Below are positions 5,216 through 64,000 of a DNA stretch of 64,000 nt, one piece after another; position 1 is the stretch's first letter, and every line of letters begins with the position of its first letter. The DNA is taken from positions 1 through 64,000 of the forward strand of contig JAFRBB010000029.1 of assembly GCA_017405085.1 (NCBI GenBank), written 5' to 3'. The notes beneath the pieces were generated by a model that saw only the letters and a list, made by a program, of their open reading frames with translations, searched no databases and was not told the origin of the DNA. Source of the stretch: Eubacteriaceae bacterium. GTDB lineage: Bacteria > Bacillota > Clostridia > Eubacteriales > Eubacteriaceae. Position numbers and translations under genes: made by a program.

Positions 5216-8164
5216 ATGGAGCATATTGACTCACTGTTTAAACGGCATTTTACAAAGTCCCTCGAGAATGATTCCCGGACGGTTTACGACTTGTTCGAAT
5301 GGCAGACCGTCGACGTCAGCCTGACCAACTATCAAACCGGTGAGACCATTCTCGAAATGAACGATTTGGAATTTCCCGCTCACTATTCCCAAAACGCCTG
5401 CAACATCATCGCCGGCAAATATTTCCGAAAAGACGGCTTAAAGGGTCGTTTTTCCTACGAAAACAGCATGCGTCAAGTCGCGGATCGCATGGTGGGATTC
5501 TGGGCCGACGCGCTTCGTGATGAAGGATTGATCACCAATGACGATCAGTGGCAGATTTTCTACGACGAAATGGTTTTTGCCCTGCTCTCGCAAATGTGGG
5601 CGCCCAACTCACCCCAATGGTTTAACACCGGCATCGCCCGGGCCTACGGCATCAAAGGCGAAGCCGACGGCCTGTATTATTACGATCCCGAAAAAAAGAA
5701 AGTCGTCCTCGCGGACGACCGTTATTCCCGCACCCAGTCCAGCGCTTGCTTCATTTTGTCCATCCAGGATAAGCTCCTCGGCCATCAATCCATTTCCGAT
5801 CACTACGTCTCGGAAACCCGGCTCTTTAAAGGCGGCTCCGGGGTCGGCACCAATTTCTCCACGCTACGGGCGGAAAACGAAGCCCTGTCCTCAGGCGGTC
5901 ATTCCTCGGGAATGATGAGCTTCCTTCAAGGCCTTGACCGCAACGCGGGCGCCATCAAATCCGGCGGAACAACAAGACGGGCAGCCAAAATGGTCATCGT
6001 GGACGTCGATCATCCGGAAATCGAATCATTCATCGACTGGAAAGTCAAAGAAGAAAACAAAGTCCGCGCCCTGGGCAAAATGGGCTATGATATCGGCATG
6101 GACGGCGAGGCTTACCGCACCGTATCGGGACAAAATTCCAACAACTCCGTGCGTTTAAACCGCGATTTCATGAACGCCGTCGTCGATATGGACAGACACC
6201 CCAACGCCGAAATCACCCTCAAAGGCCGGGTTGACAGCCGGGTCGATCGCACGGTGTCGGTCAAATCCCTGTGGGATCGCATCAATCACGCCGCTTGGGA
6301 ATGCGCCGATCCCGGTTTGCAATTCGACAATATTTTCAACAACTGGCACACCTGTCCCGCCGGGGAAGACGGGGAAGTGGGCGCCAAGCACAACCGCATC
6401 AACGCCACCAATCCCTGCTCCGAATACGCCTTCCTCGACGACACGGCCTGCAATCTGGCCTCCATCAATGTCTATCGCTTCCTAAACCCCGATTCCCGCA
6501 AATTTGATATCGAAGGCTTCATCCATCTGGTCGGTCTCATCCAGCTGGTCCTCGAAGCCTCCATTCACTGGGGACAATTCCCGACGGCCGACGTCGCCAG
6601 AAAGAGTTATCTTTTCCGCACCACCGGCCTTGGTCTTGCCAACACGGCGTCCATGATTTTGGCCCTCGGCTATCCCTACGATTCCGATGAAGGACGCAAC
6701 ATCAGCTCCGCCCTGGCGGGACTTCTGACCGGCCAGTCCTATTATGTATCGGCGCTGATGGCCGAAAAAGTCGGACCCTTTGCTTGCTATGATATCAATA
6801 AACCCTATATGATGCGCGTCATTCGCAACCATGCCCGCATTGCCGGCGAGCGCATTGACGCCTTTGAGGAACTCGATTACGATCCTTATGTGGTCGATCA
6901 TCCGATTCTCAAAAAAATCGGCTATCAAGACGTGTCTGACGCGGTGAAAGACGCATGGCATCGGGCTCAAGAAGCGGGAGAGGCCTACGGCTATCGAAAC
7001 GCCCAAGTCAGCGTCATCGCTCCGACGGGGACCATCTCCTTCGCCATGGATTGCGGCGCCACCTCCATCGAGCCCTTTTTCAGCCATGTGGTGTTTAAAA
7101 AACTCGTCGGCGGCGGCTCCATGGAAATCGTCAATCCCGTTTTGGAAACAGCCCTTAAAAATCTCGGCTACGCCAAAAACGAAATCAAAGCCATCGTGGA
7201 CTACATCATGGAAAAAGACGATTCGGGCTTTTCGGTGCATCAAAACTTAAATGACGCCCCGTATCTCAAACCCGAGCATTTGCCGATTTTCGACACCGCC
7301 GGCGACATTCGCCCCGAAGGCCATGTTCTCATGGTGGCGGCCATCACACCGATGATCTCGGGCTCCGTCAGCAAAACCGTCAATCTGCCCCATGACGCCA
7401 CGGTAGAAGACATCGCCCATATTCACCTGTTGGCCTATCAAACCGGAGCCAAGGCCATCGCGGTCTACAGAGACGGCTGCAAAGCGGCCCAGCCCCTTTC
7501 CGGCGGTCACCGCGACTTATCCGACAAAAATCTGGAAGATTACACCTACGCGGAACTCTTAAATGCCGTCAAAAAAGCCGGCAACGGCGTGCCGTCTCGC
7601 AAAAAACCCAAAGGCGTGCGCAACAGCCGCACCCACAGCGCGAAAATCGGCGATATCGAGCTCTACATTACTTTGGGCTTTTATGACGACGACACCATCT
7701 CAGAACTCTTCGTCTCCACCGATCGCGACGGCACCGTGGTCAAAGGACTGCTTGCATCCCTGTCCAAAACCATTTCCCACATGCTCCAATACCACATTCC
7801 GCCGGAATCCATTTCGATGATTCTCCGCGGTCAAAAATACGAGCCCTCGGGCTTTGTGTCGCGCCATCCCTACATCAAATACGCGTCATCCATTTCAGAT
7901 TTAATCTCCAAGGTCATTGATATCGAATGCGGCGATTATTCCAGATGTCAAGTCAAGCCCGCCAAGCATCACTATCGCTCCGACCGCGAACCGAGACAAA
8001 TTACCATGGAACCGGTGGCCTCGGTCGATTATTCCGAAGATTTTGAAGAAGCGACAGAACGCATCTACGGCGAGCTCTGCTCCAATTGCGGTTCTGATCG
8101 CATGATCCGAAACGGAACCTGCAAAGTGTGCTTGGATTGCGGCACCACAACGGGATGCAGTTGA
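5216..8164 (+). CDS. nrdJ: Adenosylcobalamin-dependent (class II) ribonucleotide reductase
   Basis: Makes deoxyribonucleotides from ribonucleotides using a B12-generated thiyl radical, without oxygen. The 982-residue product has the class II layout: a substrate-site cysteine in SSACFI near 178, the NPCSE radical/active-site motif near 399 followed by DDTACNLASIN, a PTGTISFAMDCGATSIEP segment near 600, and a C-terminal zinc-ribbon tail with four cysteines (CSNCG and CLDCG) used for re-reduction. The start at 5216 follows AGGAGAG by 7 bp; the open frame continues 93 codons upstream but across the promoter, so that extension is not coding. Only a class II enzyme is seen in this window. Confidence 0.95.
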   Translation: MEHIDSLFKRHFTKSLENDSRTVYDLFEWQTVDVSLTNYQTGETILEMNDLEFPAHYSQNACNIIAGKYFRKDGLKGRFSYENSMRQVADRMVGFWADALRDEGLITNDDQWQIFYDEMVFALLSQMWAPNSPQWFNTGIARAYGIKGEADGLYYYDPEKKKVVLADDRYSRTQSSACFILSIQDKLLGHQSISDHYVSETRLFKGGSGVGTNFSTLRAENEALSSGGHSSGMMSFLQGLDRNAGAIKSGGTTRRAAKMVIVDVDHPEIESFIDWKVKEENKVRALGKMGYDIGMDGEAYRTVSGQNSNNSVRLNRDFMNAVVDMDRHPNAEITLKGRVDSRVDRTVSVKSLWDRINHAAWECADPGLQFDNIFNNWHTCPAGEDGEVGAKHNRINATNPCSEYAFLDDTACNLASINVYRFLNPDSRKFDIEGFIHLVGLIQLVLEASIHWGQFPTADVARKSYLFRTTGLGLANTASMILALGYPYDSDEGRNISSALAGLLTGQSYYVSALMAEKVGPFACYDINKPYMMRVIRNHARIAGERIDAFEELDYDPYVVDHPILKKIGYQDVSDAVKDAWHRAQEAGEAYGYRNAQVSVIAPTGTISFAMDCGATSIEPFFSHVVFKKLVGGGSMEIVNPVLETALKNLGYAKNEIKAIVDYIMEKDDSGFSVHQNLNDAPYLKPEHLPIFDTAGDIRPEGHVLMVAAITPMISGSVSKTVNLPHDATVEDIAHIHLLAYQTGAKAIAVYRDGCKAAQPLSGGHRDLSDKNLEDYTYAELLNAVKKAGNGVPSRKKPKGVRNSRTHSAKIGDIELYITLGFYDDDTISELFVSTDRDGTVVKGLLASLSKTISHMLQYHIPPESISMILRGQKYEPSGFVSRHPYIKYASSISDLISKVIDIECGDYSRCQVKPAKHHYRSDREPRQITMEPVASVDYSEDFEEATERIYGELCSNCGSDRMIRNGTCKVCLDCGTTTGCS

Positions 8165-27937: not shown

Positions 27938-28510
27938 TTAAGCGTTATCGTGATGTTCGGATGAGTAAGACTCGCTCTGATCTTGTCGTTGTTTATTTGT
28001 TGCTTTGAAAGATGTTGGCAAATAACGTAGTACAGCTCCTGAAATCACGCCGACGATAAGTCCTGCTGGAATCGCGAGCAAGATTAAAAAAGGCAAATAA
28101 TAGATAAGAATAGCAGGCGTTTTCATAAGAAGGGCGGCGGCGACAAGTTGTCCCAAATTGTGGCCAACCGCTCCCAAAATACTGATGAATATGAGAGAAG
28201 ATTTGCCTTTTTTGTTAAATTTGATCAGAACAAACATTACAATATAGCTGATGAGGCCACCGCTCAAGGAATATATTATGGAAGCCGGCGTGCCGAAGAG
28301 TACTCCCGAGATTATAATTCTGCTGATGAGAATAAAAAACGCGGAAAGGGGAGAAAGCAACGAAAAGCTGAGCAATGTAATTATATTTGACAAACCGATT
28401 TTTGCGCCAGGGATTGGAATAAATTGCGGAAACAATGATTCCACATAGCCTAACATGATGGAACAGGATAGTAAAACGGCCGATATGACTAAATGATGTG
28501 AGTTTTTCAA
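27938..28510 (-). CDS. Gx transporter family protein (Hpre_diP_synt_I type)
   Basis: A 190-residue membrane protein with five to six helices. It fits the family long annotated as heptaprenyl diphosphate synthase component I and now grouped with ECF-type S components: note the conserved PGAKIGLSNIITLLSF block near 35 and GAVGHNLGQLVAA near 115. The substrate is unknown; a quinone or isoprenoid precursor has been suggested for the family. Its start overlaps the end of the NusG-II gene by 4 bp (ATGA), so the two are co-translated. Confidence 0.85.
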   Translation of the reverse strand: MKNSHHLVISAVLLSCSIMLGYVESLFPQFIPIPGAKIGLSNIITLLSFSLLSPLSAFFILISRIIISGVLFGTPASIIYSLSGGLISYIVMFVLIKFNKKGKSSLIFISILGAVGHNLGQLVAAALLMKTPAILIYYLPFLILLAIPAGLIVGVISGAVLRYLPTSFKATNKQRQDQSESYSSEHHDNA

Positions 28511-28857
28511 TTTTCTCCTTTAGGGACAATTTCCAGAATTAAATGATGGGGAAGGCAGGCAATACTCTCTCCGATATCAGCAATCGCTTTTGTATGAACA
28601 CAAATTTGATTTTTGCAATTGGCTTCCTGTACAAAAGCTTTTCCTTCTTTGATGACGATGATATTATAATGATCGCCATCGACGATTTTCTCTTCGGTGT
28701 CTTTATGAAGAGGTATTGTCATGATTACCCGGTCATTTTGAGTTACGCGAAGAGCTTTGTCATTTTGATCGCCGGACATGAAAAAATGGGCGCCGAGCAA
28801 GATCAAAGCAATCAAAACCAAAAACATGATGACAATCATTTCTTTTCGCTTAATCAT
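28507..28857 (-). CDS. NusG domain II-containing membrane-anchored protein
   Basis: A 116-residue protein with one N-terminal membrane helix (about 7-26) and a NusG_II-like beta domain outside the membrane, containing CKNQICVHTKAIADIGESIACLPHHLILEI. The conserved NQxCxH and CLPHxL motifs with three cysteines are typical. Function is unknown; it regularly accompanies the Gx transporter gene, which suggests a shared electron-transfer or quinone-related job. GGAG lies 6 bp upstream of the ATG. Confidence 0.85.
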   Translation of the reverse strand: MIKRKEMIVIMFLVLIALILLGAHFFMSGDQNDKALRVTQNDRVIMTIPLHKDTEEKIVDGDHYNIIVIKEGKAFVQEANCKNQICVHTKAIADIGESIACLPHHLILEIVPKGEN

Positions 28858-29018
28858 TTATGCTCCTTTCGGATGAGCGTTTTTTCATCCGGTAAAAGTA
28901 TAACCGAAGCTGTCTCTTATCGCAAATATCTTTCAATTGCAAAAAAGCCACGCTTTAATTCAATGTATAACAGAATCTGCGAAAATAAAATATTCTTCAA
29001 AAAGATTTGAATCAATTC

Positions 29019-29047
29019 TTGACAAACGGAAAATTAAAGCTTATTAT
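29019..29047 (+). promoter_or_regulatory. Promoter of the tRNA-Leu gene
   Basis: TTGACA (29019-29024), a 17-bp spacer, TATTAT (29042-29047), ending 18 bp before the mature tRNA 5' end. Confidence 0.7.
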
Positions 29048-29065
29048 AGTTAAGCATTTGACATT

Positions 29066-29151
29066 GCGAGAGTGTTGGAATAGGCAGACAAGCACGTTTC
29101 AGAGGCGTGTGTACACCGTACGTACGGGTTCGACTCCCGTCTCTCGCACCA
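29066..29151 (+). tRNA. tRNA-Leu (anticodon CAG)
   Basis: An 86-nt class II tRNA with encoded CCA. The acceptor stem is GCGAGAG/CTCTCGC. The anticodon stem is CACGT/GCGTG with loop TTCAGAG, giving anticodon CAG at 29100-29102, which reads CUG leucine codons. A variable arm precedes the T arm (GGGTTCGACTCCC). The long variable arm and CCA end support a functional gene. It borders an AT-rich block. Confidence 0.95.
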
Positions 29152-29190
29152 TAGGTTAATCAGTTCGAGATTTTCGGACTTTAGATAAAT

Positions 29191-29218
29191 ATCAATCAGA
29201 AATGGTTGATTTTTTTTA
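29191..29218 (+). terminator. Terminator downstream of tRNA-Leu
   Basis: ATCAATC (29191-29197) pairs with GGTTGAT (29204-29210), followed by an unbroken T-run of eight or more. Confidence 0.7.
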
Positions 29219-29324
29219 TATCAAAGAATCAAATGCGCTATATATCATTGCCATTTAAGGAAAAAATTAATTTAAACACTAAAAACTAGAAACATGGTAA
29301 AATGATATCTAAAGGTGTATGTCC

Positions 29325-30443
29325 ATGAAATATGATAAAAATATAGAAAAAGATCAATTAGAACAAGTCAACGAACAACTAGTTCAATACATGAAGGATT
29401 ATCCCAAGAAGAAACTATCACTTACTGCTATCGGTAATTCGATTAGTACTGGATTTTCCTTTTCAGAACCCGGCAGATTATTGTTGGAAAGAAATCCTGA
29501 GTTGGTTAAATATGGAAAAAAACATGGATTGGAAGTTCAAACATATCATCTGGTAAGAAGTGAAAACAATAATGCACTCTCTGTGGCGAATTGGATTATT
29601 CAGAATTACAGTGAAAAGAATTCAAACAATTGGAACAGAACTGATTTTAGACGTGCGATAGAAAAAGGCAATCCTTTATTCACAGAAGAGGAAATTGAAA
29701 AGTATTTTTCTGGCGGTTCTGAAAAAGGAGTCCAGGACGTTATATTTGACACAGATATAGACAACGCCAATATTGTTATTTTAAATTTAGGAACAGGATC
29801 ATTTTTGGATGTAATTATTAGGCATGGCGCTTTAACTGCTCCGAATATCTTCGGTTCTCTGGAAAGAGGGATATATGGTATTAATTCTATTCTCGAATTG
29901 ATTCAAAACAATAATCGAAACCATCAATCCAATACACAGGTTCTTTTATGCGGTGCTCCCAGATTGGTTAATTTATCAATAACCGATATCTTTATGAATT
30001 CAAAAATTTTGAAAGATGGTTTGGGATTTGCGAATGTGACCTATGTGCCTCCATTTCCCAGACAAGCTTTTTATAAAACACCAAATGGACGTATTATCCC
30101 GGATCCGCATTATAATCAAGCTGAATATTATCATTTTTTGTCTATCCTAGAAAATAATATCATTGATAATTATTATATCAGAGATTTGACGATTGATTTA
30201 GATAGAACAATATTCCAGATCAGCAATGATAATGATATACATGGAACTCACTATTCTAAAAGCGATATCTTAAATGTGATTGACGAATCTGCTAAAAAGT
30301 ATGAAAGTCAAACAGGGGATTATAATTATTATATTGATTTTATTCACACTTATATCAAAAACAGATATCCTTTTGATTATTACAGAAGCTCACCGGAACA
30401 CAATATTGCCGAAGATCTAAAAGAATTGAAAAAAAACCATTAA
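29325..30443 (+). CDS. SGNH/GDSL-like hydrolase, first of a pair
   Basis: A 372-residue soluble protein without a signal peptide. Block I resembles an SGNH esterase (LTAIGNSISTGFS near residue 33, with Ser in place), followed by NLGTGSF near 163, which could be the GxND-type block, and a late DIHGTHYSKSD stretch near 305 that could supply Asp/His. The match is to fold signatures rather than to a named family. Coding sequence is AT-rich compared with its neighbours. The start at 29325 has AAAGGTG 7 bp upstream; ATG 29319 is an alternative. It is followed at short spacing by a second SGNH-like gene. Confidence 0.6.
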   Translation: MKYDKNIEKDQLEQVNEQLVQYMKDYPKKKLSLTAIGNSISTGFSFSEPGRLLLERNPELVKYGKKHGLEVQTYHLVRSENNNALSVANWIIQNYSEKNSNNWNRTDFRRAIEKGNPLFTEEEIEKYFSGGSEKGVQDVIFDTDIDNANIVILNLGTGSFLDVIIRHGALTAPNIFGSLERGIYGINSILELIQNNNRNHQSNTQVLLCGAPRLVNLSITDIFMNSKILKDGLGFANVTYVPPFPRQAFYKTPNGRIIPDPHYNQAEYYHFLSILENNIIDNYYIRDLTIDLDRTIFQISNDNDIHGTHYSKSDILNVIDESAKKYESQTGDYNYYIDFIHTYIKNRYPFDYYRSSPEHNIAEDLKELKKNH

Positions 30444-30486
30444 TTGTCATCTGTTTTTGTCAATGATGATAAGGAAAGAGATTGTT

Positions 30487-31335
30487 TTGAAAGAACTACA
30501 AGTGTTTTGCGGCGTTAACTCATTGGGGATGCCGTATACGAGAGACAATAAAAATCATATCGGATTTTATGATGTGGTTATTAAAGAATTGATAAGAAAA
30601 GGTTACGGTGTTTCCGGTTTGAATTTTTCACGGCTGGACAACAATCATACTTGGGATTTTGAAGATAATTTAACGAAAGACCGCAGCATTGCATATCTTA
30701 AAAAATTGCAAATCCAATCAATTGACGATTTAAGAAATACCAATGCTTTATTTAAATTAGTTGTTCCCGATAGCTTTAAACACACAATAAATATCATGCC
30801 TTCAGACTATGATATCACATTAAAATCATTATATTTGATGGCTGAAAATCCGATTTTTATCTATAGCGCAGGTCCCAATGATTTATTTTCTTATATTCGA
30901 TCCGGTCCTTTTGAATTGATTGAAAAAAAAGTCAGAGATCAATTACCAAAAGATATCATCCCTGTATTAAAACAATGTATTGGGAATGTCAAAAATAATT
31001 GGGAGCTTCTTTTTCAACTAAATTCTAAAGTGAAAATAGTTGCTCTGAGTCATTTTTATTCACCATTATATGATAAGCTTCAAAAGATTATATATTTCCA
31101 AGAATTATTGGAAAACAGACACACAAAATATGAAGATGTATATATGAAAGTCACCGGTTTGTATAACGATATGTTGTCAGAAGCAAGCGAAAAATATGAT
31201 TTTGTTGATTATTGTGATATCACCTTTCTTAATAATTATTGCGCCCCAATGGACTTTCACCCGAATACAAAAGGAAACGAATTGATTGGCGAAGCGATTA
31301 TCGAAAAATTAGAACGAAAGCTTGACAAAAAATGA
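30487..31335 (+). CDS. SGNH/GDSL-like hydrolase, second of a pair
   Basis: A soluble protein of about 282 residues. Family signatures are SAGPNDLF (GxND block) near 132 and DFHPNTKGNELIGEAI (the Asp-x2-His catalytic block) near 257. Block I is degenerate (VFCGVNSLGMP), with serine in an NSLG context. No signal peptide. TTG 30487 is preferred because GGAAAGAG lies 6 bp upstream; ATGs at 30463 and 30466 are alternatives without a good site. Same AT-rich composition as the preceding gene, about 40 bp downstream, so probably one transcript. Substrate unknown. Confidence 0.65.
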   Translation: MKELQVFCGVNSLGMPYTRDNKNHIGFYDVVIKELIRKGYGVSGLNFSRLDNNHTWDFEDNLTKDRSIAYLKKLQIQSIDDLRNTNALFKLVVPDSFKHTINIMPSDYDITLKSLYLMAENPIFIYSAGPNDLFSYIRSGPFELIEKKVRDQLPKDIIPVLKQCIGNVKNNWELLFQLNSKVKIVALSHFYSPLYDKLQKIIYFQELLENRHTKYEDVYMKVTGLYNDMLSEASEKYDFVDYCDITFLNNYCAPMDFHPNTKGNELIGEAIIEKLERKLDKK

Positions 31336-31443
31336 TCGGAAAGACAATTTTCTAAACCATAGAAAGAAAAACAAGAATGCGTATTATGCAATTGCCTTTG
31401 CCTTATATTTTATCTCTCATCGCGATTGTCTATTCGCAAAATT

Positions 31444-31478
31444 GAAGGCTGAACAACAAAAACCGTTGTTCAGCCTTC
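31444..31478. terminator. Perfect 14-bp inverted repeat between convergent genes
   Basis: GAAGGCTGAACAAC (31444-31457) and GTTGTTCAGCCTTC (31465-31478) around AAAAACC. Neither strand shows a long T-run, so it is a probable but not typical bidirectional terminator. Confidence 0.5.
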
Positions 31479-31544
31479 GCGTTATAACGAATTGGGATGT
31501 CCGAGAGATGTTTTATCGAAAGAAATATTTTACATTGTCGACTG

Positions 31545-31922
31545 TTAACTTACTCGCATGACAGAAACAGGAATCCCTAGAATATTGATTTTATCTTGAT
31601 CAACCATTTCTTCACTGTCATCGTAAGGGTTTAAATTGGTTAAGATAACTTTTCCATCGATAAGCTTAATATGTTTGAGCATTACTGTATCATCTATTGA
31701 TAATAAAGCGTCGCCCTCATCGGGACAGTCATTTTGAATCTTGATAATAACAATGTCGTCTTTCAGATAACGATCATACATGTCGTTATTATTTAAAATG
31801 ACGTATAGGTAATCTCCATCATGACGATGCGTTTTGGGAATGTCGTCCCATTCGAGTGTTTTTGATTGGTAAAGATCGGGCTGAACCGGCGAAAAAGCCG
31901 ATACGTTATGGTCAAATTTCAT
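31545..31922 (-). CDS. Free-standing S24/LexA-like domain protein, probably catalytically inactive
   Basis: A 125-residue protein that aligns by eye with the C-terminal peptidase domain of LexA/CI-type regulators: YVILNNNDMYDRYLKDDIVII corresponds to the V-x-GDSM-x-P-x-GD-x-V block, EGDALLSIDD to the following strand, and VMLKHIKLIDGKVIL to the segment with the catalytic lysine. The nucleophilic serine position reads NNDM instead of GDSM, so autoproteolysis is not expected. There is no helix-turn-helix domain. AGGAGG lies 7 bp upstream. A binding or decoy role is possible but is inference. Confidence 0.65.
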   Translation of the reverse strand: MKFDHNVSAFSPVQPDLYQSKTLEWDDIPKTHRHDGDYLYVILNNNDMYDRYLKDDIVIIKIQNDCPDEGDALLSIDDTVMLKHIKLIDGKVILTNLNPYDDSEEMVDQDKINILGIPVSVMRVS

Positions 31923-32050
31923 AATTTCCTCCTAATCGAGTTCATCGCGCATTTATTTTTGAATGTCAAATTAGTATAACGCAAATCCTGCTTGAATTAA
32001 ACAAGATCCTTCGTTATAATCAAAAATAATTTCCATTAGGGAGAAAGAAA

Positions 32051-32785
32051 ATGCTCAATATCTTTAAAAAATACAGTTTTTGGATCGCAATCGTGGCCAT
32101 TATGCTGCTGCTTTTGACTTGGATCAGTCTCGGAGCTTCGACAAAATATAACCTCGATCAAAGCAATAAAGAATTGATTCGAGGTGTTGATGTATCATCT
32201 TATCAGGGAGAAATCAATTGGGAAGCTTTTGATGCACAAGATATCCGTTTTGCTTTTATCAAAGCAACGGAAGGCAGTTATTACGCTGACGAGACATTCG
32301 AAAAAAATGCCGAAGCCGCCGAGAGACACGGGATCTATGTCGGCGCTTATCTGTTTTTTGATTATAAAGACGATGCCCAAAAACAAGCTGAGCTTTTTAT
32401 TAAAACCGTTCCTAAAAAAGCAAAACGCCTGCCGCCGGTGGTTGATATCGAGAATTTGCCGTTGGATGATTTATCTTCCTATGATGAGACCATCTCCAAA
32501 ATCAATTCGATTGTCATTCAACTCAAGGAGGTTTACGGCAAGACACCGATTCTCTATATCAATCATAATATCTATGACACTTATGTCGCCACTCGCTTTT
32601 TAGACTGTCCGATTTGGATCAGTGATTACACCAGCGCGGAGCCTTCACTTTCCGACGGCAGAAAATGGACGTTTTGGCAGTATTCCAACCGCGGTCTTTT
32701 ATTTGAGACAAAAGGGGCCGAACGCTTTGTGGACATGAATCTGTTTAACGGGAATATTGATTCTCTTAAAGCATTTCTTAATTAA
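32051..32785 (+). CDS. Membrane-anchored GH25 lysozyme
   Basis: A 244-residue protein with an N-terminal signal anchor (about 9-28) and a glycoside hydrolase family 25 domain from 44: RGVDVSSYQGEINW carries the first catalytic Asp, DIEN near 132 holds the catalytic Glu, and the barrel closes with WTFWQYS and FVDMNLFNG. It should cut the N-acetylmuramic acid to N-acetylglucosamine bond of peptidoglycan on the outer face. No cell wall-binding repeats follow. AGGGAG lies upstream of the ATG. It stands alone between a convergent gene and topA. Confidence 0.92.
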   Translation: MLNIFKKYSFWIAIVAIMLLLLTWISLGASTKYNLDQSNKELIRGVDVSSYQGEINWEAFDAQDIRFAFIKATEGSYYADETFEKNAEAAERHGIYVGAYLFFDYKDDAQKQAELFIKTVPKKAKRLPPVVDIENLPLDDLSSYDETISKINSIVIQLKEVYGKTPILYINHNIYDTYVATRFLDCPIWISDYTSAEPSLSDGRKWTFWQYSNRGLLFETKGAERFVDMNLFNGNIDSLKAFLN

Positions 32786-32925
32786 AATGTTTTAATATTT
32801 TCAATTAGTTTCATCGAAGCCTCACTGGAAAATCGAGTTGATCGCTATTTGATTCCTCGTTCTTCCGATGACATTTTGATGACATCACATCAAGACAACA
32901 AGACGAGTTACAGAGTCGCATGATC

Positions 32926-32955
32926 TTGCCGGTATTTTTGCCGGCAAAATATAAT
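32926..32955 (+). promoter_or_regulatory. topA promoter with overlapping inverted repeat
   Basis: TTGCCG (32926-32931), 18-bp spacer, TATAAT (32950-32955). The repeat TTGCCGG (32926-32932) with CCGGCAA (32941-32947) covers the -35 and much of the spacer, so it could be an operator. Confidence 0.5.
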
Positions 32956-32992
32956 ATAAACAGGAATTTAGAAGCAGCAGGAGGAAGCGCTT

Positions 32993-35050
32993 TTGAGTAC
33001 GTTAGTAATTGTGGAATCGCCGGCTAAGGCGAAAACCATAAAAAAATATTTGCCCAATGGATATCGGGTTCAGGCAACGATGGGCCATGTGATTGATTTG
33101 CCCAAAAGTCGTATCGGAATACATATTGATGATCACTTCAAACCGGACTATATCACCATTCGCGGCAAAGGGGAATTGTTGAACACTTTAAAGAAAGAAG
33201 CGAAAAAAAGCGATACGATTCTTCTGGCAACGGACCCCGACCGCGAAGGGGAAGCTATTTCTTGGCATGTTGCCAATTCTCTCGGTATTGCTCCCGCGAG
33301 CGCTTGCCGGATTGAATTTCATGAAATAACAAAAAACGCAGTCAATCAGGCGTTGGACAACGTCCGTGCCATTGATATGGATTTGGTTAATGCCCAACAA
33401 GCACGCCGGGTATTGGATCGCCTGGTGGGCTATTCTTTAAGCCCTTTCCTGTGGGATAAGGTAAAAAAAGGGCTCAGCGGCGGCCGCGTTCAATCCGTTG
33501 TCACGCGTATTATCGTTGACAGAGAAAAAGAAATCGAAAATTTTGTTCCCGAAGAATATTGGAAGATTGCCCTGTCATTAAAACATGATGACTCTGCGCC
33601 TTTCACAGCAGATTTTTATTCGGAAAACGGCAAGAAAATTTCAATTCCAAATGAAGATGAAGCGAATCGCATCGAAAAGATCATCAATGACCACCGTGAC
33701 GCTATTGAGGTCGGTGAGGTTGATACAAAGGTGAAATATCAAAGGCCGCCTTTGCCGTTTACCACCAGCACCTTGCAACAGACAGCCTATAAAGCCCTCG
33801 GATTTAATACGCAACGCACCATGCGCGTGGCCCAACAACTTTTCGAAGGGGTGAATATTGCAGGAAGAGGGCAAATCGGATTGATTACTTATATTCGAAC
33901 CGATTCCACCAGACTCGCAGCGGAGGCGGTGGACGCCGCTCATCGTTTGATCGAAAATCGTTTTGGAGATAACTACCTTGGAAACGGCAAAAAAGCTGCT
34001 AAAAAGAAAAATATCCAAGACGCTCACGAAGCCATCCGCCCCGTCGATGTGTTTTTGACACCAACAGATGTCAAAGAATCATTGGAAAGCGATCAATATC
34101 GGCTTTATAAATTAATTTGGGAACGTATGATTGCCGGTCAGATGGCCTCTGCCGTCTATGATCACGCCAAAGCCGATGTCCTCTGCGGACCGCTGAAGTT
34201 TGTCGTGAACGGCGAAGTGATGCGCTTTGACGGATTTACTCGAATCTTGACTTCCGCCGCCAAAAAAGACAATCCGTTACCGGAACTAAAAAAAGGCCTC
34301 TCTCTGGATTTACTGAAAATCAATAAGGAACAGAAATTTACGCAACCGCCTGCCCGTTTCAACGAAGCGTCGTTGGTAAAATACCTGGAAGAAAACGGCA
34401 TTGGCCGTCCGAGTACCTATGCGCCGACCATCGCAACGATTAAGAATCGTTATTACGTCGAGGTCAAAAATAAGCTGTTTTATCCGACAGAATTGGGAAG
34501 ACAGGTTACGGAACTGATGGAGACCTATTTCCCCGATATTGTCGATGTCAAATTCACGGCGAAAATGGAAAATGAGCTCGATGAGGTGGCCAAAGGAAAC
34601 CGTGATTGGGTTGAACTGATGGAAGGCTTTTACACCCCTTTCGAAAAGGAAATGTCCCATGCCAAGAGCACCGCGAAGAGCGTTAAAATCGAAGATCCGC
34701 TCTCTGACGAGTTTTGCGAGCTTTGCGGCAGGCAAATGGTCATCAAAAACGGTAAATACGGTAAGTTTCTTGCATGTCCCGGTTATCCCGATTGCAAAAA
34801 CACCAAACCGTATCTGGAAAAAACCGGTGGAATTTGCCCTGAATGCGGGGGAGATCTGGTTAAGCGCAAATCAAAAAAGGGACGGACTTTCTATTCCTGT
34901 TCTAACTATCCCGATTGCGATTATGTCAGCTGGGACGCGCCGACATCCCAAAAATGTCCGGTTTGCGGCAATACCATGTTTACCAAGGGATTCGGGAAAC
35001 GCAAAAAAGTTTATTGCGCGCATTGTCAGTCCCATGAAAAAGCCGATTGA
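32993..35050 (+). CDS. topA: DNA topoisomerase I
   Basis: Type IA topoisomerase that relaxes negative supercoils. The 685-residue protein starts with the Toprim domain ([15 protein letters not shown], then [14 protein letters not shown] near 80), has the catalytic tyrosine in [10 protein letters not shown] near 298, and the [11 protein letters not shown]-like block ([26 protein letters not shown]) near 450. Three C-terminal zinc-ribbon units with CxxC pairs occupy about 575-685. TTG start, supported by AGGAGGAAG 8 bp upstream. It leads the topA-hslV-hslU block. Confidence 0.96.
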
Positions 35051-54246: not shown

Positions 54247-55020
54247 ATGAAAAAGTATTTTGATTTAACAGGACAGGTCGCGATCGTCACGGGATGCTCC
54301 ACGGGGCTGGGTGTGCAAATGGCGAAAGCCCTTGCCAATCAAGGCGCCATTATCGTTCCCATTGCCCGCAGACAAAATTTAATCGAGGAAGTCGCCAAAG
54401 AAATCACCGATGAATTCGGTGTCGAAACGTTCCCGCTTCGCTGCGACATCACCGATACGGCAATGGTTGATCAAATGGTTGATCAAGTTATGGAAAAGTT
54501 CGGCCGCATTGATATTTTGGTCAATAACGCCGGAACCGGCGCTGTCGCGCCCGCCGAGGAAATCACCGACGAGCAATTCGAAAACGAAATGAACATCGAC
54601 TTGTTTGGTAGTTTCCGCGTGGCCAGAGCGGTTGCCAAAAAAGCGATGATTCCCGCTAAATACGGCCGTGTCATCAACATCGCTTCCATGTATGGTTTGG
54701 TCGGGAATAAGATTGCCGGTTCCGCCCCGTATCACGCAGCCAAAGGCGGTGTCGTCAACTTGACCAGAGCCCTCGCTTCGGAATGGGGTAAATACAATAT
54801 CACCGCCAACGCCATCTGCCCCGGCTATTTCTATACACCCCTAACCAAAGAAACCCTGGATTCCGATTTCTTCCAGGAAAACGCCAAGACCATGATTCCC
54901 GAAGAACGTTATGGGAATGAAGGCGAGCTGGACTCCGCCGTTCTCTTCCTGGCCGCTCCGGAATCAAGCTATGTCACCGGGGTTAACCTTCCCGTCGATG
55001 GCGGCTATACCGCGATGTAA
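54247..55020 (+). CDS. Short-chain dehydrogenase/reductase (gluconate 5-dehydrogenase-like)
   Basis: A 257-residue classical SDR. The cofactor motif TGCSTGLG begins at residue 15, NNAG is near 90, the catalytic Ser-Tyr-Lys are in INIASMYG (148-ish) and YHAAK near 162, and the C-terminus SYVTGVNLPVDGGYT is typical. Gluconate 5-dehydrogenases and 3-oxoacyl-ACP reductases share this pattern, and it is not possible to choose with certainty. ATG 54247 has AAGGA 7 bp upstream; the frame extends 7 codons. Transcription from a Rex-controlled promoter would link it to NADH reoxidation. Confidence 0.92.
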   Translation: MKKYFDLTGQVAIVTGCSTGLGVQMAKALANQGAIIVPIARRQNLIEEVAKEITDEFGVETFPLRCDITDTAMVDQMVDQVMEKFGRIDILVNNAGTGAVAPAEEITDEQFENEMNIDLFGSFRVARAVAKKAMIPAKYGRVINIASMYGLVGNKIAGSAPYHAAKGGVVNLTRALASEWGKYNITANAICPGYFYTPLTKETLDSDFFQENAKTMIPEERYGNEGELDSAVLFLAAPESSYVTGVNLPVDGGYTAM

Positions 55021-57466: not shown

Positions 57467-57865
57467 ATGACGGAAAAGAAATTTCATTTTTCAGGGTGGA
57501 GCGGACACGCTTTTAAACACCGCGGTGTGAGAAAAAGCCTGTGTGTTTTTTTGCTTGTGGTGATAATTGGATTGTTGCCCGGATTTGGAGGCGTGTCAGC
57601 TCAGACGAGCTCGAACACAAACACCTATGACACGGGAAACTGGGTCATAAACAGCGATGGCACATTGGGCCTCAATGATGACGCCGTGACCAACGCCGTC
57701 AGAAATATTACCGGCGATGTCTCCTTGGTGTTGATTGGTACGGAGGGCAGAACGATCACGCTTCCGACAACTATTTTCGGCGTGATCGCGACAAAAATCA
57801 GCAATGAGAAAGATGCCGCCTTGGTTTTATACAAAGGGAATAATTCCGGGCAAAAGGTGAAATAA
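57467..57865 (+). CDS. Surface protein, 5' fragment with signal peptide (broken gene)
   Basis: A 132-residue reading frame. Residues 1-45 form a long signal peptide with a hydrophobic core (CVFLLVVIIGLLPG) and cleavage near VSAQT; the remainder is a Ser/Thr/Gly-rich extracellular sequence. Its stop (TAA 57863-57865) lies in a region that reads on in another frame after a probable +1 base in AAATAAA, and then meets a TAG (57897). It is the secretion signal of the broken gene ending at 60937. AAGGAG precedes the ATG by 8 bp. Confidence 0.6.
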   Translation: MTEKKFHFSGWSGHAFKHRGVRKSLCVFLLVVIIGLLPGFGGVSAQTSSNTNTYDTGNWVINSDGTLGLNDDAVTNAVRNITGDVSLVLIGTEGRTITLPTTIFGVIATKISNEKDAALVLYKGNNSGQKVK

Positions 57866-57959
57866 ATCTACCGTCAGCGCGATGCTGAAGCAAGTCTAGT
57901 TTTCTTCAGACACAACATCGGTCAACATTGCCGTAACGGATGGGGAAACTTCCATCGAT

Positions 57960-58232
57960 GTGGCGAGCAATAGCTCGACATTCGGTATTATGAATGCCGG
58001 TGGCGAAGCGCATATCTACAAATATGAAGATAATAAAATTAGTTGGCTTGATGCTTATCATTACGCAGTAACCGGTGCTGGAACGTTGGGTGGATTTAAA
58101 GGCTATTTAGCTACTGTAACGACTCAAAGAGAAGCTCTTTTACTATATAATTACCAGGAAAGTGTTGGTAAAGCAGGCCAAGAAGGTTGGTTGGCGCTAC
58201 GTCTATGCGTTATACAAGTGATAAAAATATAG
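57960..58232 (+). pseudogene. Surface protein, middle fragment (C-type lectin-like)
   Basis: A 90-codon frame carrying MNAGGEAHIYKYEDNKI and FKGYLATVTTQREALLLYNYQ, the first half of a C-type lectin-like fold (GYLATVT-type strand). Its last dozen codons past EGW are out of frame; the following frame resumes with VGATSMRY, so one missing G near 58190 joins the two. The upstream end is bounded by a TAG at 57897. Confidence 0.55.
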
Positions 58233-60937
58233 ACAATTATGATAATGTTCCTCCGAAAGACTTGGTAACACCGTCAAATTATGAAGTGCTCACGACGTAT
58301 AATACAAACCAAATAACTAAAGGTAATAGAATGGTGGGAACAAAAGGGGCGTATTATTGGTCGAATATAAAGAATGACGGGGATCGTTATAGAACGTATT
58401 TCTATTGGGCTTGTGGACCGGAGATAGGTCAAATTTTAAATGATAAATCCCTATGGAATCCAGTAGCGAACGAGCCGAACAACAATGGGAGTGGAGGTGC
58501 GGGGGAATGCTGTGTAGCTGCTTCTTCACTGAACACGGTTCAGTTTAATGATAACATTGTGAACTGGTCAATACCCGGTTATTTTCTGGAATTTAGCGCT
58601 TACGATGGTGGCCTTACTTCAGGAACAACCTATAAATCGACAACGTTCTACAAGGTGAGTTATGATGCCAACGGTGGCTCAGGTGATGTGCCGCCATTTC
58701 AAACCAAATTTAAAGATCAGCCGATGACCCTTGCCGTCAATTCCGGAAATCTGACAAGATCAAATATGGGTTTCAACGGCTGGAACACGAAAGCGGATGG
58801 GACCGACACGCACTATGATGCCGGTGAGGCACTGCCTGCCGACACAAACGAAGGTCTCACGCTCTATGCCGAGTGGGTCGATGATCCGGCGGCGACGCCG
58901 ACGGTTATCGGACCTAAAGATAAAACGGTTGTCTATGGTGAAATAAGTGGCGATCTTCAAGTTGAAGCGTCATTGCCCGATGATGCAAAATCGAATCACA
59001 CATTGACCTATCAATGGTATGCCAGTCCGACGGACAGCACGACAGACGGAACGCCAATAGACGGCGAGACACAAGCGAGCTTCACCATTCCGACGGACTT
59101 GAATCCCGGAAAATATTATTACTATTGCAAAGTGACCTCGACCGCAACTGACAAAGAAAACAGAAGAACCTCGGTGTTTTCCGATGTGGGCACCGTGACG
59201 GTCGAAAAATTAGATTCTTCGGTAACAAATCCTCCGACTGCAAAAGAAAATCTGGCTTACAATGATTCTGAGCAAGAGCTGGTGTACGGAGGGGCAGCTT
59301 CTGGCGGTACTATGCAGTACGCCATCGGAACCGATGACACGACGCCCCCGACAACCGGCTGGGGAACAACAATCCCCAAAGGCACCGATGTCGGCCCCTA
59401 CTATGTGTGGTACAAAGTCAAAGGAGACGGCAATCACAATGACGAGGAGCCTGCCTGTAAAACCGTCACGATCCATCCGAAGGCCATCAAAGTCACAGCG
59501 GAAGCGAAAAGCAAAAATTACGGCGAAGCCGATCCGCCGCTGACCTACACGGTTGATGAATTGGCTCCGGGCGTGACGATCACCGGCAGTTTGGAACGGG
59601 ATCCGGGCGAAAACGCCGGAACCTATCCAATCCGAATCGGTAGCCTTGCCACTAATAGCGCGAATTATCGAATCGATTTTACACCGGCGCTTTTGACCAT
59701 TCACGCGTTGGATGCCACTGTGCAAAAACCGCCGACACCGAACGAACTGACCTATACCGGCGAAGCGCAAGACCTCATCAAACCCGGCGCGGCGAATGGC
59801 GGCACCATGCAATACGCCCTCGGCACCGACGGAATCACGCCGCCGACAGAAGGGTGGGGGACTGAAATTCCCGCCGGCACCGATGCTGGCACCTACACGG
59901 TGTGGTATCGCGTCAAAGGTGACGGCTCACACCGTGATGTATCGCCGAGACCCATCAACGTCACCATCCTGCCCGGCGAACAACCGGCGCCTGTTGATCC
60001 CCCTGAGCCGGCAAAGGTCACTTCCCATGAGATCACCGTGGACGCCAAACCCGACGAAGAATACAGCATCGACGACGGAAAAACTTGGGTGAAACCCAAA
60101 GACGGCGAAGACACCGTCACCTTTGGCGGACTCGATCCCGACAAGGAATACGCCATCATCGCCAGAAAAGCCGGCACGGATAACGAAAATCCATCACCCG
60201 CGTCGGCTCCGCTGGTGGTCACCACGCCCCTTGGCAAAGTCGAAACCGAAATTATCCTCGGAGAGGGGCTTGTTGGTCCGACGGTAGACGGCTTTGATGA
60301 CGCTTTCGCGAAAAAGCTCAACACGCCGAAGGATATCAAGGCTGTGGATGACGGAGCGACCATCACCTATACGCTGAAAGTCGATGGGCTAGACCATCCG
60401 CCGACAGGGGACAAAGCCCAATGTGAAAAAGCCGCGGCGGCCATCGGAAGAGGCGCGACAATCGGAAAATATTTCGACGTGTCACTTTATAAACAAATTG
60501 GTGATGCCGAACCGGTGAAAGTCAACGATACCCACGGAAACATGGTCACTGTGTCCTTCGACATCCCGCCGGAATTGTTGCGGTTTTTCCCGAACGGGCA
60601 AAGAGAATTTTATGTAATCTGCATGAACGGCGGCAAAGCCGAACGCATTCCGGCAACGATCTCCGACAATCGTATTACCTTCCTGACAGACAAATTCTCC
60701 ATTTATGCGCTGGCCTATCAAGATCCCGCGAGTCAAAACTCGGCAAATTCCAATAATCTGAATCATCCGAACGGCGGCGTCAATGGCGAAAGCACGACGG
60801 ACACCTCGGCCAAAACCGGTGTGTCGGGCAGTGATCGTCTGCAGGTCGCTCTATTCCTCATTGCGTTGGCAGCAGGAGGCGCGTTGCTGATTACCCTAAC
60901 TGCTTTTGTTCTCAAACGAAAAAAAGACAATCAATAA
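58187..60937 (+). CDS. Large surface protein, 3' part: lectin-like end, Flg_new-type repeat, Ig/MBG-like repeats, membrane anchor
   Basis: A 916-codon frame. After the end of the lectin-like domain (VGATSMRY, FYWACGPE, WNPVANEPNNNG, FLEFSAYDG) comes an InlB B-type/Flg_new repeat near 160-225 (VSYDANGGSGDVPP, WNTKADGT, TLYAEW), an Ig-like segment, two near-identical 85-residue modules (59221-59475 and 59716-59977; each with GGTMQYA, PPT-GWGT and VWYVKGDG) around an MBG-like domain, a fibronectin-like stretch, and a C-terminal membrane helix with KRKK tail. It is a cell-envelope adhesin-like protein; the sorting motif is not LPxTG but TSAKTG occurs 7 residues before the helix. The gene is broken upstream. 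Confidence 0.75.
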   Translation: MVGATSMRYTSDKNIDNYDNVPPKDLVTPSNYEVLTTYNTNQITKGNRMVGTKGAYYWSNIKNDGDRYRTYFYWACGPEIGQILNDKSLWNPVANEPNNNGSGGAGECCVAASSLNTVQFNDNIVNWSIPGYFLEFSAYDGGLTSGTTYKSTTFYKVSYDANGGSGDVPPFQTKFKDQPMTLAVNSGNLTRSNMGFNGWNTKADGTDTHYDAGEALPADTNEGLTLYAEWVDDPAATPTVIGPKDKTVVYGEISGDLQVEASLPDDAKSNHTLTYQWYASPTDSTTDGTPIDGETQASFTIPTDLNPGKYYYYCKVTSTATDKENRRTSVFSDVGTVTVEKLDSSVTNPPTAKENLAYNDSEQELVYGGAASGGTMQYAIGTDDTTPPTTGWGTTIPKGTDVGPYYVWYKVKGDGNHNDEEPACKTVTIHPKAIKVTAEAKSKNYGEADPPLTYTVDELAPGVTITGSLERDPGENAGTYPIRIGSLATNSANYRIDFTPALLTIHALDATVQKPPTPNELTYTGEAQDLIKPGAANGGTMQYALGTDGITPPTEGWGTEIPAGTDAGTYTVWYRVKGDGSHRDVSPRPINVTILPGEQPAPVDPPEPAKVTSHEITVDAKPDEEYSIDDGKTWVKPKDGEDTVTFGGLDPDKEYAIIARKAGTDNENPSPASAPLVVTTPLGKVETEIILGEGLVGPTVDGFDDAFAKKLNTPKDIKAVDDGATITYTLKVDGLDHPPTGDKAQCEKAAAAIGRGATIGKYFDVSLYKQIGDAEPVKVNDTHGNMVTVSFDIPPELLRFFPNGQREFYVICMNGGKAERIPATISDNRITFLTDKFSIYALAYQDPASQNSANSNNLNHPNGGVNGESTTDTSAKTGVSGSDRLQVALFLIALAAGGALLITLTAFVLKRKKDNQ

Positions 60938-60941
60938 ACAG

Positions 60942-60971
60942 AAAAAGCACGGCGTCATGGTCGTGCTTTTT
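60942..60971. terminator. Terminator after the surface protein gene
   Basis: AAAAAGCACG (60942-60951) pairs with CGTGCTTTTT (60962-60971). Works on both strands. Confidence 0.75.
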
Positions 60972-61172: not shown

Positions 61173-61235
61173 TTGATAATTTCATCGTATCAACAAGAAA
61201 TCACAAATAATTCTATAATATTTAAGAAATATTAT
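61173..61235 (+). promoter_or_regulatory. Two inverted repeats upstream of the island operon
   Basis: TTGATA (61173-61178) with TATCAA (61188-61193), 9-bp spacer, and ATAATATTT (61215-61223) with AAATATTAT (61227-61235), 3-bp spacer. The second covers TATAAT (61214-61219), a possible -10 although no good -35 is present. Both may be operators. Confidence 0.4.
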
Positions 61236-61269
61236 TGAATTATTTTCAAGAATCTGATATCCTTTTAGC

Positions 61270-61488
61270 ATGAAAAACAAAAAAGAGAATTTCAAAAGAG
61301 TTGCAGAGAATCGCACGAATAAGATTATCAATATGATTTCTTTATTGGGGAACCTCAATAACACTTCTTTTTATGAATATGAAGACGATGAGATAGAGGC
61401 AATTTTTGATGCTATTCAATCCGAGCTTGATAAACAGCATAAAAAGCTAAAAAAGAAAAATTCAGAAAAAAAAAGGTTCGAGTTATGA
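61270..61488 (+). CDS. Small conserved-type protein of a mobile island
   Basis: A 72-residue basic protein without a signal: NFKRVAENRTNKIINMISLLGNLNNTSFYEYEDDEIEAIF, then a Lys-rich tail. The R-x2-RTNKI...LLGN...Y-x-Y-x2-DE-x-IxAIF pattern resembles, from memory, small proteins in mobile elements of Bacillota. Its stop overlaps the next ATG by 4 bp (ATGA), so the two proteins are co-translated. AT-rich codon use matches the downstream gene, not the core. Function unknown; a partner role to the large protein is inferred. Confidence 0.7.
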   Translation: MKNKKENFKRVAENRTNKIINMISLLGNLNNTSFYEYEDDEIEAIFDAIQSELDKQHKKLKKKNSEKKRFEL

Positions 61489-64000
61489 ACAGAAACAATT
61501 TCTTTTTTAAAATGACCGGAACTGAGAATAAGTATACTGAAGAGTATCTTTCTGTTGTCATTTCTAAAATTCTTGATACAGAAGGTATGATGGGGTTTGG
61601 TGAATTATATGAAAAAATACTAGAAATATATCCTGAGGTAAAAGTAAATAGAAGTGCTGTTGCTAGACTTGCAGCTGAAGAATTTCATGTTATGAAAAGG
61701 CCTGTAAATCGTACGAAAAAAAATAGGAAAAGAAATATATTTTTTGGGCTTCAAAATTCGGATGACAAACATACAGAAGAATATCTTATTAAATTAATCA
61801 GTGAGATCCTTGATGAAAAACCTCTTTCAAAAGAAGAAATCTTTGAAAGGGTTGTGAAGAAATACAACGGAGAAAAAATAAATTTCTCAGCCTTTAAGTT
61901 GTTATTAGATGAGAGATTCCAATGCAATGGAAAACTTTATCTGAATAATGTCACTGCTGATGCCAGAGCACGTTCCAAAACAACTCAAATAGAGTCAAAA
62001 TATCAATTTCAGCAATCCAAGTATATCTCTGAGCTTAATAAGTATGCTTTGTATTCAAATGAAGAATTATATAAGAAGTATAGCACTGTAATTGCAGATG
62101 ACGAATTCAATACAGTGGATGCAGTTGTACTCGTTTTAGCTACGGAAATAAAGCAAGGAATATACAGCTCAGAAAAATGTGCGGATATTTGCATTGATGT
62201 AAAAACTAATGAAGAGATTTATATAGATAGAATTAGAAAAGCTGTTAGGAACGTTGGAGAAGAAAATGATAATATTCCTTGTTCTTCGTTTGTGAGAAAC
62301 GATGCTGTTCAAGTATTCCTTGTTTCTGAAAACATATTCTGTGCGAAAGACTTTAAACTAACTAGTCCCAGAAAAATACTGATTCTCTCTGCTGCCGATA
62401 TTGGTGGTACTATTCTAGGACTTGAGTCATTATCATCAGCGTTCACTGCTAAGATCAAAGATACGATTAACGAGGTGGTACGAAATTCCCTTAATGATAA
62501 AGAGTACGATGTTCTTCTTAGAAGAAACGGTAGATTTACCGGTAGTTCTGATACTTTGAAAGAGTTGGGAGAAGAATATGGTCTTACGAGAGAAAGAGTT
62601 CGTCAAATAGAGTCAAAAGCACATCGAAAGCTTGGTAGTGCAATTATTGAAATAAAAGACATTATCAGGAGATACTTTGCATTTCATATTAAGTCTGAAG
62701 AATTGCCTTTTAAACGAGTTAAAGATATGTTGGACAAAGAAGATAATGATATTCTTATGAATGCTTGTCTAACGTTAAAATTTGCAGACATTAACTATAG
62801 ATACGATAGTAAATATCACATTATATATGATTCAGACTTTATTTCAGTAGCCGATATAGAAAAAGAAGTTGAATCAAGATTTGGAAAACTGCTTGCAGTT
62901 AGCCGTTATGATTCAGCCACAGAATTTGAAAAAGAGGTTATTGATAATAGCTATGCCTTATCAGGGAGACAGCATAATCTTTATAGACTGAAAAGATACA
63001 ATCAGTCAGATTTTCTTATAGATTTAATAGCCGAGTTATTTCCAGATGGATACCGTATATATTATGATAATGATTACGAGAAACTCGCTAATGAATATTC
63101 TAATCGTCTCGGTGACGGTGTAGAAGTGCCTTCTATAACTGCAGTAAGAGGAATAGTTGGAAGAGATGTGTTCTGCCAGATTGATAAAGGAACATATAAG
63201 ATTCGTAAAGAATGTGCGGAAATACCGATTGAACTATTTAATAGGATTTTTGATTTTATTGTAGATCATTTACCAGCAGTTGATTACATTACTATTTATG
63301 AGAATTTTGAGGGCGAGCTGAGAAGATATGGAATTGATAATTACTACTATATGAAAGGAGTGATAGATTATTCTCTGCCTGATGATTTGACAACGAAAAG
63401 AAACTACATTACTGAAACAGATAATCGTGTCACGGCAGTTGAAGCTCGACTTGCATTTATGAGAAGTTTTTCGGGGATGTTTACTCTAGATGATTTACAA
63501 AATAAATATCCTGGCGTTAAGCAATATGTCTTCCAATGTATGTGTTATGAAGAAAGTAAGAATGGATTGGTTCAGATAGGAAAAAAGAAGTATATATATT
63601 CTGACAATCTTAGTATTTCTCACGAACAGTCCACAAAGCTCAAAAATATTATTGAAGATTTATTCAGAAACACTAATGAAGAGGTGCTGTCTTCAAGAAA
63701 AGTTTTCGCCAAAACAAAAATATCATATCCGGATTTGTTGAAAAATATACCATACATTGAAGATCAGTTCTCAATGTTTTCAATAATAAAGTATTTATTT
63801 GCCGAAGATTACTATTTTGATAGACCTTACATTTCAAAGATTGAGCCTGATGCTGAAAGAATCACAACAAGAGATCTTATTCTTTCTCACCTTAATGAGT
63901 ACGATAAGATAGATTACAATGTATATCGTGATTATTGCATGAAAATGAATATACAAATGATTTATACATATATGCAATTGGTGGATGAGTTAAGCGATGA
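61485..64000 (+). CDS. Very large protein with tandem winged-helix-like repeats and sigma-70 region-4-like HTH (partial, runs off the window)
   Basis: At least 838 codons with no stop before the window end. Residues about 15-75 and 95-160 are two similar units (KYTEEYLSVVISKILDTE, HTEEYLIKLISEILDE) resembling winged helices or HARE-HTH-like modules. At about residues 360-385 is TLKELGEEYGLTRERVRQIE, then SKAHRKLGSAI, the sigma-70 region 4 pattern that binds promoter -35 DNA. Regions 2 and 3 of a sigma factor are absent. The rest is alpha-rich and not recognised. It overlaps the 72-aa gene by 4 bp. It may be a DNA-binding or transcription-directing component of a mobile-island system; this is inference. 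Confidence 0.75.
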   Translation, partial: MNRNNFFFKMTGTENKYTEEYLSVVISKILDTEGMMGFGELYEKILEIYPEVKVNRSAVARLAAEEFHVMKRPVNRTKKNRKRNIFFGLQNSDDKHTEEYLIKLISEILDEKPLSKEEIFERVVKKYNGEKINFSAFKLLLDERFQCNGKLYLNNVTADARARSKTTQIESKYQFQQSKYISELNKYALYSNEELYKKYSTVIADDEFNTVDAVVLVLATEIKQGIYSSEKCADICIDVKTNEEIYIDRIRKAVRNVGEENDNIPCSSFVRNDAVQVFLVSENIFCAKDFKLTSPRKILILSAADIGGTILGLESLSSAFTAKIKDTINEVVRNSLNDKEYDVLLRRNGRFTGSSDTLKELGEEYGLTRERVRQIESKAHRKLGSAIIEIKDIIRRYFAFHIKSEELPFKRVKDMLDKEDNDILMNACLTLKFADINYRYDSKYHIIYDSDFISVADIEKEVESRFGKLLAVSRYDSATEFEKEVIDNSYALSGRQHNLYRLKRYNQSDFLIDLIAELFPDGYRIYYDNDYEKLANEYSNRLGDGVEVPSITAVRGIVGRDVFCQIDKGTYKIRKECAEIPIELFNRIFDFIVDHLPAVDYITIYENFEGELRRYGIDNYYYMKGVIDYSLPDDLTTKRNYITETDNRVTAVEARLAFMRSFSGMFTLDDLQNKYPGVKQYVFQCMCYEESKNGLVQIGKKKYIYSDNLSISHEQSTKLKNIIEDLFRNTNEEVLSSRKVFAKTKISYPDLLKNIPYIEDQFSMFSIIKYLFAEDYYFDRPYISKIEPDAERITTRDLILSHLNEYDKIDYNVYRDYCMKMNIQMIYTYMQLVDELSD

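Follow-up and report, generated by a model that had tools for sequence, protein, structure and literature searches.

The window analysed here, i.e. the 64,000 nucleotides at positions 1–64,000 of the 81-kb contig JAFRBB010000029.1 (GCA_017405085.1), ends in the beginning of a candidate anti-phage operon of a gut Firmicute. The operon encodes a large protein in which a sigma-70 region 4 domain (sigma-4) lies within a predicted array of winged helices, and this protein recurs as a genuine part of PDC-M33, a candidate defence cassette already listed in PADLOC. The placement of a sigma factor's promoter-reading tip among about ten predicted winged helices, together with a 72-residue partner that has a conserved control site, may show how parts of the transcription machinery are reused in immunity.

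As the window opens the contig, the large gene could be followed beyond position 64000, and the operon was found to comprise five genes: a 72-aa gene (61270–61488, + strand), the sigma-4/winged-helix-array gene (61485–64000 in the window, ending at contig position 64295; + strand), PDC-M33A (64292–66214; 640 aa), PDC-M33B (66201–67109; 302 aa), and PDC-M33C/DUF6339 (67090–67875; 261 aa), the last of which marks the downstream end at 67875. The 72-aa gene is identified as a conserved first cassette gene by alignments of its family and by the dyad association described below. Both the large frame without a stop over more than 2.5 kb and the 4-bp overlap (ATGA, 61485–61488) that joins it to the 72-aa gene, as reported in the preliminary description of this DNA, are present; the frame closes at 64295, specifying a protein of 936 aa, and overlaps the start of PDC-M33A (64292). 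The sharp change in composition after a terminator at about 61 kb, reported in the same description, is also real: the GC content is 0.28–0.38 from 61.0 to 68 kb versus about 0.5 on either side, and a terminator-like hairpin at 60942–60971 (+ strand; 10-bp arms AAAAAGCACG and CGTGCTTTTT), read directly in the sequence, closes the upstream surface-protein gene. The automatic terminator scan did not report this hairpin because its loop (10 nt) exceeds the scan maximum of 8. A second AT-rich stretch (GC about 0.32–0.37) is present in the window at 28000–33000.

Past the operon, core genes follow (mntP-like, glycosyltransferase-like, rpsO, pnp, dut, and ftsK, with recA at a greater distance; translations judged by eye). 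In a same-genus genome, the gene matching the window gene that ends at 55017 (97% identical protein) is located about 340 bp from mntP, and the genome analysed here contains about 13 kb of extra DNA between these two genes; this DNA holds the operon and genes for surface proteins. Within this genus-variable stretch, 57467–60937 contains large frames that resemble surface proteins, with repeats and a membrane anchor at the C-terminus. Direct repeats were sought at the ends of the insertion, and only 9-bp chance matches were found; an Rfam scan of the downstream region gave no match above the threshold. The evidence supports the AT-rich stretch as the left portion of a defence operon that is horizontally variable, and to this extent the earlier proposal of the left edge of a mobile or defence island holds, but only three more operon genes follow before the core genes. 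The integrase, helicase, nuclease, or toxin envisaged next door was not found; the neighbouring genes encode an ATPase with GHKL motifs, a protein modelled as a beta-sandwich, and one with DUF6339.

The three PDC-M33 genes are adjacent and overlapping and are thus all encoded together, and their products gave full-length PADLOC matches, in order, to PDC-M33A (E=3e-140), PDC-M33B (E=4.9e-63), and PDC-M33C (E=6.3e-26), the last being DUF6339 in Pfam. In the M33A alignment, RExxQNSxD, DxxTxGxxG, and GSxGIGK are invariant or nearly so, and we take these to be the N-box, G1, and G2 motifs of GHKL ATPases. From these motifs alone, M33A is predicted to be a GHKL-type ATPase; it had no Pfam match at E 0.5 and no PDB profile match at E 0.1. 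M33B was modelled as a beta-sandwich with a helical C-terminus, fibronectin-III-like by weak matches, and the model indicated no nuclease. PDB profile searches with M33B and M33C gave nothing usable, and no nuclease was recognised among the operon proteins.

The sigma-4 of the 936-aa protein is genuine. Pfam detected Sigma70_r4 at aa 335–383 (E=1.2e-10), and many RpoD models match the protein, its NCBIfam matches covering region 4 and its immediate flank only. The domain is internal, with about 550 aa on its C-terminal side, and neither Pfam nor NCBIfam reported sigma regions 2 or 3 in the protein; region 2 was also not found by Pfam in any of 27 homologues. The closest homologue, which is 73% identical (locus L049, where M33A is 87% identical), was modelled with AlphaFold using the 27-sequence alignment, and the mean pLDDT was 83.7 but the pTM 0.45, so that single domains are trustworthy and their relative placement is not. 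The modelled sigma-4 aligned with region 4 of Taq sigmaA on -35 DNA (1ku7_A) over 73 of 73 residues (Z 7.8, rmsd 2.5, 37% identity), and other structural matches included sigma-4/beta-flap chimeras (Z 7–8). TRERxRQ, which presumably includes the residues that touch -35 bases in sigma-A, is near-invariant over the 27 homologues. The claims of a mid-protein sigma-70 region 4 helix-turn-helix (HTH) and of missing regions 2 and 3 are therefore borne out, and the modelled HTH matches the sigma region 4 fold, not an unrelated HTH. The two N-terminal winged-helix-like repeats described earlier are real (38% identity; alignment score 110, against an average of 25 and a highest value of 50 for shuffled sequences) and were each modelled as a module of three helices, with a clear wing in the second module, but that account was incomplete: two modules precede sigma-4 and about eight follow it in the model, i.e. 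about ten in all, and the modelled array resembles tandem winged helices such as those of SelB. No description of this architecture was found in the literature searched.

Among the 27 homologues, sigma-4 was detected by Pfam in 23 and the C-terminal domain of the RNA polymerase alpha subunit (RNA_pol_A_CTD; alpha-CTD) in 10, indicating that relatives fuse sigma-4 to a predicted alpha-CTD, which Pfam did not detect in the window's own protein. At locus L043 (G103), the alpha-CTD is encoded within the M33 cassette by a 181-aa gene of its own (5435–5980; two copies of the domain, E=4e-29), which adjoins the gene for a 546-aa sigma-4 protein (6012–7652) ahead of a split M33A gene. A zinc-ribbon-like CxxC pair is present at the N-terminus of some homologues. 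A plasmid search with the 936-aa protein gave no match, a PDB profile search with the C-terminal array gave nothing usable, and a viral-contig search with the protein alignment caught ordinary sigma-4 domains only, since it was the sigma-4 motif that served as the pattern.

A bait search with M33A yielded 80 loci, and a set of 86 non-redundant M33A loci was examined. M33B is present in 85 of these and M33C in 78. The 72-aa gene was seen in at least 52 (a lower bound, as some of these genes were missed by the ORF picker), and the sigma-4 gene is present in 31, being absent from the other 55. Three gene orders were observed: 72-sigma4-A-B-C, 72-A-B-C-sigma4, and sigma4-72-A-B-C. The 72-aa family is thus the usual first gene of M33A loci, and the sigma-4 protein is an optional addition whose position varies. 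The proposed pairing of the 72-aa protein with large sigma-4 proteins does recur, also together with defence genes, but it is the ATPase that constantly accompanies the 72-aa protein. By motif or cluster, a methyltransferase gene is present in 31 of 42 full-context loci, including 16 of the 18 with a sigma-4 gene. None is linked to the window's operon, and no C5 or Dam-type methyltransferase was found in the window's genome, which contains HsdM-type genes on other contigs and one sub-threshold N6/N4 match.

In 391 genomes of the class, the C-terminal profile of the sigma-4 protein had 25 matches and M33A had 11. Strong matches to both coincide in four genomes (Fisher p=4e-4), and M33A is missing in 15 of the 19 genomes with a strong sigma-4-protein match; together with several loci that carry no defence genes, this indicates that the sigma-4 protein is not limited to M33. 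Such stand-alone homologues are found at L222, L223, L224, L226, and L047. At L230 (6945–18302), the gene for a 1334-aa homologue, which also weakly matches PglW (E=8e-9), immediately precedes PbeA, PbeC, and a DndC-like gene, and at L232 a homologue is encoded beside BrxP/PglZ; L233 appears similar.

Upstream of the 72-aa gene, a 17-bp dyad (AATATTT-AAG-AAATATT, 61217–61233), which has no other perfect copy in the 2.2-Mb genome, forms a putative operator. It is followed by a proposed promoter on the + strand (61235–61263; -35 TTGAAT, 17-bp spacing, -10 TATCCT, and an upstream TG), which was deduced from the sequence and from the same arrangement in relatives; a generic promoter scan reported other sites. 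The predicted -10 ends 6 bp before the ATG at 61270, placing the predicted transcription start at or beside this ATG, and no Shine-Dalgarno sequence is visible in 61258–61270. The operon mRNA may be leaderless. The close relatives L049–L051 resemble the window in this region, and GGAGG is present in most other loci.

The conserved dyad, AATATTT-N3-AAATATT, emerged from the alignment of upstream DNA, and its association with 72-aa genes is newly identified here. In 52 regions upstream of 72-aa genes, at least 13 of 14 positions match in 32 (expected 1.7) and all match in 14 (expected 0.13). Of 20 perfect dyads in 1.39 Mb, 18 are at the start of a 72-aa gene, and the 19th lies 149 bp ahead of a 72-aa gene overlooked by the ORF picker. 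M33A genes for which no 72-aa gene was recognised are not preceded by the dyad, apart from one 13/14 match. The dyad is present at L253 (1501–3221), where a perfect dyad and a 72-aa gene are followed by a different GHKL-looking ATPase gene and M33A is lacking; a cytosine-methyltransferase-like frame precedes the 72-aa gene in this sister cassette. The 72-aa family also forms the N-terminus of 570–640-aa proteins, acyl-CoA-ligase-like by eye (L260, L263, L266–L272), and the dyad is found upstream of some of these fusions (L266, L267, and L271). The dyad goes with the 72-aa family rather than with the sigma-4 protein or the ATPase. Its distance to the -35, where the latter was assignable, is about 0–1, 9–13, or 21–22 bp, and the phase at 10.5 bp over 17 groups is far from uniform (R 0.85; 0 of 20000 simulations). 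As the -35 was assigned by hand after part of the sequences had been seen and kinship was only roughly removed, this helical phasing is suggestive evidence that the dyad is bound by a 72-aa-family factor which touches the polymerase. The 72-aa protein is probably the regulator of the operon, acting through the dyad beside the -35.

We favour, with slightly less than even confidence, the explanation that the sigma-4 protein serves as an adaptor, reading DNA for a defence ATPase that is linked to modification. Its sigma-4 and winged-helix array, plus the alpha-CTD in relatives, would grip DNA, perhaps at promoter-like -35/UP sequences, and pass it to M33A, which may clamp or loop the DNA, as has been suggested for the MutL/MORC-type ATPases found in restriction-modification systems; in most relatives, the linked methyltransferase would label self DNA. 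The adjacency of the sigma-4 gene to the M33 cassette in 31 of 86 loci and the homologues beside Pbe/Dnd and BrxP/PglZ genes are consistent with this role. By analogy, so are the BREX proteins built from the same parts, i.e. PglW, with an alpha-CTD-like domain and then three winged helices, and BrxL, with a sigma-HTH (PMC12839542). Against it stand the 15 genomes with a strong sigma-4-protein match but no M33A, the M33A loci that lack the sigma-4 gene, the methyltransferase-free operon of the window, its own protein without a detected alpha-CTD, the lack of a recognised nuclease in the operon, and the assignment of M33A to the GHKL class by motifs only.

The main rival, possible though on balance doubtful, is that the sigma-4 protein is a transcription regulator, which would block or assist RNA polymerase at -35/UP elements, whether these belong to its own operon or to phage or host genes, with no direct attack on phage DNA. 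The two parts of the polymerase that lie side by side at UP/-35 are sigma-4 and the alpha-CTD; the -35-contacting residues are kept, and several homologues occur by themselves where no defence genes are present. Perfect dyads are also commoner in sigma-4-positive loci (12 of 27) than in sigma-4-negative loci (2 of 25; Fisher p=0.004, kinship ignored). However, the dyad occurs at loci without a sigma-4 gene and is absent upstream of stand-alone sigma-4 genes, for which reason its assignment to the sigma-4 protein was set aside. In addition, 936–1185 aa and about ten winged helices are large for a repressor, and the protein recurs in several kinds of defence context.

Sigma-4 of known sigma factors has two binding partners, -35 DNA and the RNA polymerase beta-flap. 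The sigma-4 protein might displace sigma-A at the beta-flap and, once triggered, abortively halt host or phage transcription; the beta-flap chimeras among the structural matches agree with this, but the best-conserved part is the set of DNA-recognition residues and no toxin-like or triggering element was found, making this mechanism improbable. That the operon is a mobile or housekeeping cassette for DNA management is quite improbable. PDC-M33 is a computational candidate, and no paper naming it was found in the literature searched, but its linkage to DNA methyltransferases and restriction-type genes is strong, its distribution scattered, and its insertion variable, and it is present in 7 viral contigs. 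A true alternative sigma factor of the island, as the RpoD matches and the NCBIfam label of MzaA as a sigma factor might suggest, is very unlikely and was rejected: with regions 2 and 3 in no family scan and sigma-4 internal, we infer that the protein lacks the parts for reading the -10 (region 2) and opening DNA.

If the adaptor explanation is true, bacterial immunity would reuse the two DNA-reading tips of RNA polymerase, the alpha-CTD and sigma-4, outside transcription, and invaders would perhaps be recognised by their own promoters. A broader proposal, which we consider speculative and rather unlikely, is a promoter-mimicking immune family in M33, BREX-like, and Dnd/Pbe loci, in which the alpha-CTD, sigma-4, and winged-helix array would sense the strong -35/UP promoters of invaders, and the 72-residue family would drive its own operon from the helically phased dyad. 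Whether or not the adaptor explanation is right, PDC-M33, so far listed as three genes, gains a gene that consistently comes first, an optional gene for DNA reading, and a putative operator, and it is now linked to modification-based systems. The PADLOC entry is limited to genes A–C, all present here, whereas the two genes ahead of them in the operon match no PADLOC model of PDC-M33.

Compared with sigma-A/RpoD, the sigma-4 protein shares the region 4 fold and the -35-reading motif but lacks regions 1–3, and its sigma-4 is embedded in a winged-helix array. BREX resembles the operon in the parts of PglW and BrxL and in the distant homologues adjoining BrxP/PglZ, but the operon has no kinase, BrxC, PglZ, or BrxX (BrxC and PglZ were sought with PADLOC among its proteins). 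Unlike restriction-modification systems, the window's locus encodes no cognate DNA methyltransferase. MORC-like ATPases of such loci have been proposed to loop DNA between recognition and cleavage sites (PMC2292703); M33A resembles the MORC/paraMORC ATPases at the level of GHKL motifs, and its neighbourhoods likewise include cytosine or adenine methyltransferases, Vsr-like nucleases, and type III genes, whereas no nuclease was recognised in the window's operon. The MZA system (MzaABCDE) also combines a sigma-4-containing protein with a GHKL/MutL-type ATPase, but the likeness of MzaA to the sigma-4 protein is limited to sigma-4, which is C-terminal in MzaA and internal here. The MzaA model scored 39.5 bits (cut-off 800) over positions 639–701 of 726, and full-length MzaA was not encountered. 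Of the mza-like systems reported in PMC9523054, only a few contain mzaA, the sigma factor, in agreement with the optional sigma-4 component of M33A loci. The Z1 helicase MzaC and the AIPR protein MzaE had no match among the five operon proteins, and their models matched at other loci.
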